DNA from: Fibrobacter sp. UWB10
Lineage (GTDB): Bacteria > Fibrobacterota > Fibrobacteria > Fibrobacterales > Fibrobacteraceae
Assembly: GCF_900182935.1 (NCBI RefSeq)
Contig: NZ_FXUE01000001.1
Coordinates: 310,001-374,000 of the forward strand
Direction: 5' to 3'
Length of the DNA stretch: 64,000 nt
Under the pieces are notes generated by a model, which worked only from the letters and a program-made list of their open reading frames with translations, was not told where the DNA came from and made no database searches. Shown here in pieces: positions 36,980 to 63,520 of the stretch (the first letter of the stretch is position 1; every line of letters begins with the position of its first letter). The position numbers and the translations under genes are program-made.

Positions 36980-37008
36980 TTGACACCTCCGCCCAATTAT
37001 TCTATAAT
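36980..37008 (+). promoter_or_regulatory. Consensus sigma-70 promoter of tRNA-Gly
   Basis: Exact TTGACA (36980-36985), 17-base spacer and exact TATAAT (37003-37008), 11 bases upstream of the tRNA. Confidence 0.92.
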
Positions 37009-37019
37009 TGGGCAACCCC

Positions 37020-37092
<73 letters not shown>

Positions 37093-37102
37093 CTAAAAAG
37101 AA

Positions 37103-37130
37103 AAAGACACCTACATGGTGTCTTTTTTCG
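37103..37130 (+). terminator. Terminator of tRNA-Gly
   Basis: AAAGACACC-tacat-GGTGTCTTT stem followed by a T run. Confidence 0.88.
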
Positions 37131-37140
37131 TTTTATAACA

Positions 37141-37428
37141 CGGGAAGGGACCCGGCACCCTCGAAGAGGGTGCGACCAAATTCTTTTTTGGGCAAAGCCC
37201 GTGAAAAGAATTTGGAGCTTAACGCGAACGAAGTGAGTGTTGAGCCCGTAGGGCGGCAAGTCAGCCGCGCAGCGGAGACTGACGCAGCCGCAGTCCCTTT
37301 TCCCATACGACGAATCACATAATTTGGCTCATGCACGAAGCGCGTGCGAATTATTTAGGAACTCACGCCCTAAAGGGCGGGAGGCCCGTCAGGGTGAGGA
37401 GCTAGCCGGTCGTAGACCGGAGACTAGC
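37141..37428. repeat. Array of about eight hairpins in non-coding DNA after tRNA-Gly
   Basis: No credible gene lies between 37132 and 37650. The stretch is packed with perfect inverted repeats: GCACCCTC/GAGGGTGC (37155-37173); a 12-bp stem CCAAATTCTTTT/AAAAGAATTTGG enclosing GGGC-aaa-GCCC (37176-37215); GCCC-gta-GGGC (37244-37254); GTCAG-CCGC-gca-GCGG-aga-CTGAC (37260-37283); GCACG/CGTGC inside ATAATT/AATTAT (about 37319-37354); CGCCCT-aa-AGGGCG (37366-37379); and GCTAG-CCGGTC-gta-GACCGG-aga-CTAGC (37401-37428). The fourth and last have the same architecture with different paired bases. This suggests selection for structure, either as an RNA or as a REP-type mobile repeat cluster. Confidence 0.7.
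37292..37304 (+). repeat. Copy of the tRNA-Gly 3' end
   Basis: AGTCCCTTTTCCC, identical over 13 bases to tRNA-Gly positions 37077-37089. It could be an attachment-site-like duplication left by integration next to the tRNA. Confidence 0.5.
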
Positions 37429-37436
37429 GACGAATC

Positions 37437-37449
37437 AATCCCTTTTCCT
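37437..37449 (+). repeat. Second, diverged copy of the tRNA-Gly 3' end
   Basis: AATCCCTTTTCCT, 11 of 13 bases identical to the tRNA 3' end. It and the copy at 37292 are each next to a GACGAATCA word (37309 and 37430). Confidence 0.4.
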
Positions 37450-37493
37450 CAGCATCAAATTGCATCTGGCAAGCATCCCCTTCAAATCAAAGC

Positions 37494-37525
37494 TGATTAA
37501 TCACTGATTAATCAGCATTTAATCA
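37494..37525 (+). promoter_or_regulatory. Candidate enhancer site: tandem TGATTAATCA palindromes
   Basis: Two perfect TGATTAATCA copies (37494-37503, 37505-37514) and a degraded third (37516-37525) are spaced 11 bases apart, one helical turn, 53 bases upstream of the -24 element. The same array with three perfect copies occurs at 63485-63516. Confidence 0.7.
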
Positions 37526-37653: not shown

Positions 37654-38040
37654 ATGAAGGAATATGTTGCCTATGAAGGCCCATGCTTTACAATAGAATG
37701 GTTCTATAACGAACAAGGAGAAAGCCAGGCTTTAGAATATTTTAACGGATTAAGTGATGCACAACAGCGAAAGGTGCTGATGCTTTTTAAGCGAATTGGC
37801 GATTTCGGAAGGATTTCAGATATAACAAAGTTCAGAAACGAAGGCGATAAAATATACGCATTCAAGCCGCAACCAGATCGTTTTTTGTCATTCTTCTATA
37901 TAGGCAAGAAAATAATCATAACAAACGCTTTTCGCAAAAAAACGCAGAAATTGCCGGAAGAAGAGAAACGACAAGCACTACTCAATATGCAAAGCTACAA
38001 TAAACGTGTTTTAAAGGATGTATATTATGAAAAAGACTAA
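37654..38040 (+). CDS. RelE/HigB-superfamily toxin (phage Gp49-like)
   Basis: A 128-residue protein of the type II toxin group related to phage protein Gp49 and HigB, which usually cleave mRNA on the ribosome. Matching parts are IEWFYNEQGESQALEYFNGL, then KRIGDFGRISDITKFRNEGDKIYAFKP and FFYIGKKIIITNAFRKKTQKLP. The ATG at 37654 follows an AAGGAGAT site; an upstream TTG is less likely. Toxin before antitoxin is the HigBA order. The unit sits next to the tRNA-associated hairpin array, which fits acquisition on a mobile segment. Expression from a sigma-54-type promoter would be unusual for this class. Confidence 0.85.
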   Translation: MKEYVAYEGPCFTIEWFYNEQGESQALEYFNGLSDAQQRKVLMLFKRIGDFGRISDITKFRNEGDKIYAFKPQPDRFLSFFYIGKKIIITNAFRKKTQKLPEEEKRQALLNMQSYNKRVLKDVYYEKD

Positions 38041-38335
38041 ATCGACTTTTGAAAGAGTCATGACAAGTCCAAAACAGAAAAAGGCTTTTGAAAAAGAATA
38101 TGCGAACTTTCTTCTGTCGGAACTATTGCTGGATGCCATGTCCAAGCAAGATATTAGCGTGCGAGCCCTATCTAAGGCATCAGGCATTTCAACCTCAGTG
38201 ATTCAAAACCTGCGAGCCATGCAGCCCGTAAACATCACGCTAAAAACATTGAACGCCCTACTTTCCTCTTTAGGCTATGAACTTATCGCCCGAAGAGGTC
38301 GGCATTGCGTAAGCCTGACTACACAATCGGTGTAA
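38027..38335 (+). CDS. HigA-like antitoxin with Xre-type HTH
   Basis: A 102-residue partner overlapping the toxin stop by 14 bases. The HTH is VRALSKASGISTSVIQNLRAM. An N-terminal basic helix (MKKTKSTFERVM) probably contributes to toxin neutralisation or DNA binding. The start at 38027 is chosen over an ATG three codons upstream. Such antitoxins normally repress their own operon; an operator could be the GCCAA/TTGGC repeat at the promoter, but the conserved copy at the SpoVG gene argues for another regulator. Confidence 0.85.
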   Translation: MKKTKSTFERVMTSPKQKKAFEKEYANFLLSELLLDAMSKQDISVRALSKASGISTSVIQNLRAMQPVNITLKTLNALLSSLGYELIARRGRHCVSLTTQSV

Positions 38336-40173: not shown

Positions 40174-40181
40174 GACAAAAC

Positions 40182-40212
40182 GTCATTGCGAGCACGCCGT
40201 GCGAAGCAATCC
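40182..40212. repeat. REP-like palindrome of the GTCATTGCGAG...GAAGCAATC type
   Basis: ATTGC-ga-GCAC-gcc-GTGC-gaa-GCAAT hairpin between two genes. The pattern matches a palindromic repeat seen in many bacterial genomes. Confidence 0.75.
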
Positions 40213-40238
40213 AAGGAAAATTTTTAAAAGGAAAAAAA

Positions 40239-63480: not shown

Positions 63481-63520
63481 AAAGTGATTAATCACTGATT
63501 AATCAGTGATTAATCACTTT
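63481..63520. promoter_or_regulatory. 40-base perfect palindrome of three TGATTAATCA units
   Basis: Three perfect TGATTAATCA copies (63485-63494, 63496-63505, 63507-63516), 11 bases apart, flanked by AAAG and CTTT, so the whole 40 bases equal their reverse complement. It is a candidate enhancer-binding site for the sigma-54-type promoter 67 bases downstream, and matches 37494-37525. Confidence 0.75.

Follow-up and report, generated by a model that had tools for sequence, protein, structure and literature searches.

RtT-like elements behind a tRNA-Gly gene of Fibrobacter: hairpin units bounded by copies of the adjacent tRNA 3' part

Introduction

What is the dense cluster of hairpins that directly follows a tRNA-Gly gene in Fibrobacter sp. 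UWB10, and does it persist as a folded RNA or as a folded DNA? The cluster lies in a window of 64,000 nucleotides (contig NZ_FXUE01000001.1, positions 310,001 to 374,000 of the forward strand); coordinates below are those of the window. A first-pass annotation, made from the letters alone, described an array of hairpins with compensatory base changes and read it as a structured RNA or a family of structure-selected mobile repeats, possibly linked to a REP-associated transposase.

Repeats in the tyrT operon have been known for decades and, to our knowledge, have been regarded as an oddity of a single enterobacterial operon. They give rise to the RtT RNA, which is about 171 nt long and is released from the tRNA transcript. 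RtT RNAs are released from tRNA operon transcripts, in E. coli from tyrT, where RtT has been described as a modulator of the stringent response; RtT-family RNAs have been detected by RT-PCR in Actinobacillus pleuropneumoniae, and in Actinobacillus they also occur near Asn and Lys tRNAs (PMC4986893). Nothing on such elements in Fibrobacter was found in open-licence papers.

Results

Organization of the array

The region from 37141 to 37449 consists of two tandem copies of one folded element, located directly 3' of tRNA-Gly(GCC) and its terminator. The tRNA gene (37020-37093, plus strand; ARAGORN and Rfam) is preceded on the same strand by a TTGACA-17-TATAAT promoter (36980-37008) that matches the consensus at 12 of 12 positions. 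In the spacer between tRNA and element lies a hairpin resembling a bidirectional intrinsic terminator (37100-37128, plus strand), and the array follows, behind the tRNA gene as the first-pass annotation had placed it. No promoter-like site was seen within the array. The arm and the tails of the element have as their template the 3' part of tRNA-Gly(GCC) from the T-loop onward (GAGTCCCTTTTCCCGCTC).

Both units are on the plus strand. Unit 1 opens with the 5' arm of P0 (37141-37151), the reverse complement of the tRNA 3' part (CGGGAAGGGAC), which in the fold pairs with the tail at 37292-37304 to form the outer stem of the unit. Within this stem, the fold contains P1 (37155-37173; GCACCCTC-GAA-GAGGGTGC), whose 3' strand GAGGGTGCGA mimics the tRNA T-arm GAGGGTCCGA. 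The long hairpin P2 (37176-37215) and the hairpin P3 (37217-37245) are supported by both fold and covariation, as is P5 (37254-37290), a two-part hairpin with an AGA bulge on its 3' side. Between P3 and P5 lies the mini-hairpin P4 (37246-37252), whose core CCC-GTA-GGG is a motif shared with E. coli RtT (CCCGAAGGG). The unit closes with a tail (37291-37304; CAGTCCCTTTTCCC) that copies the tRNA 3' part as an exact repeat of 13 nt. Unit 2 contains P2', P3', P4' (CCC-GTCA-GGG), P5' (37401-37428) and a tail (AATCCCTTTTCC) at 37437-37449. The 13-mer AGTCCCTTTTCCC, which belongs to the tRNA 3' part (37077), is found again as a direct repeat at 37292, and an altered copy of it lies at 37437.

When a covariance model derived from relatives was applied, it placed two tandem units in the window, at 37166-37300 (120.5 bits) and at 37309-37445 (63 bits, E 6.8e-13 in the genome). 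The predicted RNA fold of 37135-37445 had an energy of -136 kcal/mol, compared to -100.6 +/- 5.5 for shuffled sequences (z = -6.45). The two hairpins singled out in the first-pass annotation, GTCAG-CCGC-GCA-GCGG-AGA-CTGAC (37260-37283, within P5) and GCTAG-CCGGTC-GTA-GACCGG-AGA-CTAGC (37401-37428), are present exactly as described there. That description did not include the outer stem, the unit ends copied from the tRNA, the organization into two units or the kinship with RtT.

Directly 3' of the array, at 37654-38335, is a toxin-antitoxin-like pair, the first gene coding for a Gp49/HigB-like product (PF05973) and the second for an HTH protein that resembles antitoxins (PF13443). By eye, an HTH antitoxin-like protein also lies 3' of a tRNA-Gly array in another genome (G003, locus L062), and the sequence 3' of tRNA-Gly appears to be a site of variation. 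The sequence TGATTAATCA occurs five times in the window against 0.06 expected, always within two perfect tandem palindromes (37492-37516 and 63485-63516), the first of which sits just before the toxin-antitoxin pair. These palindromes are possibly operators of a regulator.

Distribution and covariation

A Gly-type covariance model was built from 28 units and comprised P0, P2, P3, P4 and P5. In its alignment, 38 of 55 stem pairs were altered on both sides, and the covariation score was 0.346, compared to 0.148 for shuffled alignments and at most 0.095 when pairing partners were slid. The compensatory changes proposed for the array are therefore real and strong, far above both kinds of control. 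The model search that had been suggested for further copies was positive in 73 of the 80 Fibrobacter genomes, with 1 to 13 copies per genome; the absence of other copies, named at the outset as evidence against the proposal, was not what was found. In the 168-genome sample of the phylum, matches of the Gly model outside Fibrobacter were confined to a few members of the same family.

Six copies were found in the UWB10 genome with the Gly model, all behind tRNA genes, including a second tRNA-Gly(GCC) and tRNA-Gly(CCC). All 84 Gly-type matches checked lay downstream of tRNA-Gly on the same strand, 61 of them directly and the others in tandem or slightly further away; some of these loci were retrieved with a tRNA-containing query, and those retrieved by the model alone behave alike. 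The exact tRNA-Gly tail pattern was found in 36 stretches, all in records named Fibrobacter or Fibrobacterales. A model of the Ser element (described below) matched 82 of the 168 phylum genomes, in a few genera of one family, and 19 of 20 further loci from its list lay behind tRNA-Pro(CGG), the remaining one having no detected tRNA. Searches of phage and plasmid collections gave no match to the element. Two tail-pattern matches in viral contigs lacked a tRNA and were set aside as apparent coincidences in coding sequence.

The first downstream ORFs are diverse, with 38 dissimilar ORFs in 54 loci, which argues against a cis-regulated partner. A cis-regulatory RNA acting on the downstream gene, the toxin-antitoxin pair included, was rejected because downstream genes are not conserved.

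Elements match their own tRNA neighbour

Weak matches in the UWB10 genome led to copies at tRNA-Pro(TGG) and tRNA-Pro(CGG), and a survey of the genome's 51 tRNAs added tRNA-Ser(CGA). The elements at these three loci have the same P1-P5 order and are framed by copies of the T-arm and 3' part of their own tRNA. One arm and the 3' tail copy the neighbouring tRNA's 3' part from the T-loop onward, with the junction after TTCGA. When 16-nt tails were compared, using one chosen example per context, identity to the own neighbour averaged 15.0 of 16 positions, compared to 7.9 for the other neighbours. The tRNA-Pro(TGG) gene has two variants, and the inverted arm is complementary to whichever variant is present locally (21 of 22 cases; 6/7 and 15/15; Fisher 9e-5). 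The Pro inverted arm matches the upstream tRNA better than it matches the element's own tail.

No copies were found away from tRNA or tmRNA genes, and the same five tRNA genes are occupied throughout Fibrobacter. The loci are polymorphic for presence and absence: tRNA-Pro(TGG) and tRNA-Ser(CGA) carry a full element, a short one, several or none. None of the loci yielded a clean, precise insertion that could be reconstructed against an intact empty site. Alleles of P2, P3 and P5 (20, 20 and 22, respectively) reassort between units, as seen from four-gamete violations. A terminator-like hairpin precedes 51 of 55 distinct first units in spacers from the genus.

In a related genus (g8, genome G146; L112:1024-1157), the 5' end of tmRNA is adjoined by an element in antisense orientation, the first non-tRNA neighbour among the elements examined here. 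The last 16 nt of this element exactly reproduce the complement of the tmRNA 5' end, next to a T-loop-like TCGA/AGCC; this is a single, weakly scoring example (25 bits).

Kinship with RtT

A permissive Rfam scan reported RtT (RF00391) on the Ser element at 33 bits. Matches to RF00391 were obtained in 28 of the 61 Fibrobacter genomes searched, with E down to 1.6e-5 and a best score of 37.6 bits against a gathering cut-off of 45, which none of the 61 genomes exceeded. Among the 20 loci that this search returned, tRNA-Ser(CGA) accounted for 16 and tRNA-Pro(CGG) for two, and the other two had no detected tRNA, and among 14 control genomes E. coli alone gave a match. In the reciprocal search, which in E. 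coli covered the tyrT region, a model trained exclusively on the Ser elements of Fibrobacter scored 52.2, 39.4, 37.9 and 37.8 bits on the four E. coli units. The same model scored 40 bits on two of the three Gly loci of the UWB10 genome and 17 on the third. The Gly model (R1) reached 12.9 bits in E. coli, and the Gly branch by itself would not reveal the kinship. Rfam at gathering thresholds reported only tRNAs in the window, and the window's copy (locus L019) was not listed for RF00391 even at E up to 0.5.

The Fibrobacter and E. coli elements have in common the sequence CCCG..AGGGTGAGGAGC...GCGACGAAT.AATCC. The E. coli tyrT region, the source of the small RNA rttR, contains an inverted tRNA arm (GGGGAAGGAT), a P1 ending in AAGGTTCGA, a P3 hairpin, CCCGAAGGG, GAGGAGC...GCGACGAAT and the tail AATCCTTCCCCCACCACCA. 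Both groups thus have tandem units after a tRNA gene, an inverted arm from the tRNA 3' part, a P1 that ends in a T-arm half (AAGGTTCGA / GAGGGTTCGA), the P3 hairpin, the CCCGAAGGG motif and a tail that copies the tRNA 3' part from the T-loop. They differ in that the neighbours are Gly, Pro and Ser tRNAs in Fibrobacter and Tyr in E. coli, that an intrinsic terminator stands before nearly every Fibrobacter first unit whereas the E. coli spacer has none, and that the Fibrobacter P2 and P5 are longer, P5 with its AGA bulge; the Gly units are only weakly alike. Because the covariance models match reciprocally, we call the Fibrobacter elements a divergent RtT branch. They form an RtT lineage in another phylum. 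The assignment of the window's array as two tandem units of an RtT-like element, a Fibrobacter branch of the E. coli tyrT family, is well supported.

Comparison with other known systems

REP/BIME repeats moved by RAYT (TnpA-REP) share with the elements their small intergenic palindromes, bulges and GNA-like loops. In contrast, the Fibrobacter elements are bound to tRNA genes rather than dispersed, have arms copied from tRNA and show no dependence on a Y1 transposase. The layout that the first-pass annotation saw in common with the REP at 40182 is superficial, as the covariance models do not match that repeat. The REP-like palindrome itself (CGTCATTGCGAGCACGCCGTGCGAAGCAATCC, 40181-40213), unrelated to the array by the models, is the single exact site in the window.

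In integrative elements that target tRNA genes through the att sites of tyrosine recombinases, direct repeats of the tRNA 3' part likewise flank the unit and the boundary lies in the T-loop. The Fibrobacter units differ in being about 145-215 bp long, in having neither genes nor an integrase, and in carrying an inverted copy of the tRNA end and a conserved fold. GOLLD and ROOL are large structured RNAs often described near tRNAs, mostly in phages; they are much larger than the Fibrobacter units, and no Rfam match to either was found in the elements scanned.

RNA or DNA

In the Ser alignment, 61 cells of the stems were altered on both sides and two on one side, and G.U pairs were nearly absent. 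Most apical loops have the form C(GNA)G; C(GNNA)G tetraloops, among them GTCA, GCCA and GTTA, also occur. In single-stranded DNA, mini-hairpins capped by GNA or GNNA are stable, whereas RNA favours GNRA. In Gly elements read on the tRNA strand, flanked mismatches were G.T in 64 cells and A.C in nine, corresponding to 12 and six distinct events, a count confounded by shared ancestry and by the structure-fitted alignment. The excess hints at strand-specific folding, and it arises in part because G.T pairs of the T-stem are inherited. A neutral count with a stem finder, set aside as too noisy, gave G.T to A.C ratios of 10:4 for Gly, 3:1 for Pro and 3:11 for Ser.

Discussion

These data establish the anatomy of the elements, the covariation, the local match to the tRNA, the reassortment of modules, the presence/absence polymorphism and the kinship with RtT. 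Our leading explanation, which we hold with about even confidence, is a DNA-level foldback repeat that resides beside a few tRNA genes, with arms that are copies both of the adjacent tRNA gene and of one another. We favour it because of the strict Watson-Crick double changes, the C(GNA)G loops, the preceding terminator, the reassortment of modules and the arm that follows the tRNA. Each unit is a junction of hairpins P1-P5 set between inverted and direct copies of the adjacent tRNA 3' part, beginning in the T-loop after TTCGA. Under such a scheme, the hairpins would form in single-stranded DNA, and the arms would stay matched to the tRNA and to each other through arm-to-arm copying of the template-switch or quasi-palindrome type. 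The repeated tRNA 3' ends could allow units to be duplicated or deleted and hairpin modules to be exchanged by recombination. Any RNA from the element would represent read-through past the tRNA terminator, and a dedicated transposase would probably not be involved.

The readings that compete with this one put either RNA or movement first. The elements may instead encode a functional small RNA, co-transcribed by read-through and released by tRNA processing, whose fold is kept for a role in trans or related to the stringent response and whose arms pair with the tRNA or its precursor. Such a role is plausible in Fibrobacter since RtT is a real released RNA in E. coli, said to modulate the stringent response, and RtT RNAs were detected in A. 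pleuropneumoniae by RT-PCR (PMC4986893); the strong fold and covariation and the G.T excess on the tRNA strand are also in its favour. However, 51 of the 55 spacers between tRNA and unit contain a strong intrinsic terminator, a feature lacking in the E. coli spacer, and the array has no promoter-like site of its own. The scarcity of one-sided and G.U changes in the Ser stems, the antisense orientation of the tmRNA copy, and the variation in unit number, down to loci with no unit, likewise argue against an RNA function, which we consider doubtful, though it is the main rival. An actively mobile, non-autonomous foldback element would account for other features. It would target TTCGA^A, copy the tRNA 3' ends as target duplications and be moved by some enzyme, perhaps an HUH enzyme, a tyrosine recombinase or a reverse transcriptase. 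Consistent with this, all the tRNAs have the junction at one and the same position of the T-loop, the antisense tmRNA case has it at a T-loop-like TCGA^AGCC, the tails repeat the tRNA 3' part in direct orientation, and the loci are polymorphic with reassorting modules. Yet genus-wide the elements keep to the same five tRNA genes, and none was seen anywhere but beside tRNA or tmRNA; they have no linked cognate gene, phages and plasmids yielded no matches, and Y1 transposases are missing from 24 of 41 genomes. We consider active mobility unlikely.

A further reading is that of REP/RAYT repeats moved by a REP-associated tyrosine transposase, as the first-pass annotation had suggested. The elements are palindromic, bulged, intergenic and repeated, and genome G000 carries one Y1 transposase. 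However, Y1 was found in 17 of 41 genomes of the genus, a distribution that refutes REP/RAYT as a general explanation; it is missing from most of the copy-rich genomes (G038, which has 13 copies and none of these transposases, G051, G057 and G068), and the elements always lie by tRNA genes rather than being dispersed. We regard this mechanism as highly improbable. The initial reading as a structured RNA or structure-selected mobile repeats was thus a good guess with respect to the many copies and strong covariation, and it did not hold in its likeness to REP and its link to a transposase.

Returning to the DNA-level foldback repeat, a broader version can be put forward tentatively, with more doubt than conviction: E. 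coli RtT and the Fibrobacter arrays may together make up a single class of foldback DNA elements that spans phyla, docks at the T-loop and copies the 3' end of its tRNA or tmRNA neighbour, whichever that is. In that case the "RtT RNA" would be a by-product, while the arms would be the footprint of an undescribed copying or insertion mechanism. Fibrobacter provides a second, much larger natural collection of RtT-like elements, with hundreds of copies, five tRNA types, tandem arrays, and gains and losses. As the tRNA-mimicking part changes with the tRNA, it becomes testable whether RtT is a working RNA, parasitises tRNA genes, or is a scar left by DNA copying from one hairpin arm to the other. 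The collection is also a warning that strong "compensatory" covariation can arise from a mutational cause.

Other repeats beside tRNA genes were observed. In the UWB10 genome (L149; C2:126135, minus strand), a copy of the tRNA-Arg(ACG) 3' part of at least 18 nt (about 29 by eye) lies about 170 bp downstream of the gene. The hairpins between the two copies are different, and this stretch is a separate small tRNA-bounded element outside the RtT-like family. A hairpin-rich sequence 3' of tRNA-Cys (GCA) in the same genome (L158; GAGCAAC...GTTGCGAGAG) is like the Arg element and unlike the RtT-like ones. In another genome (L065, G025:C23), similar copies of a different non-coding stretch (CTGAAAACAAGCATTCAGG...TTTTACGGGAAA) accompany each of two tRNA-Gly genes that are separated by about 1.5 kb.
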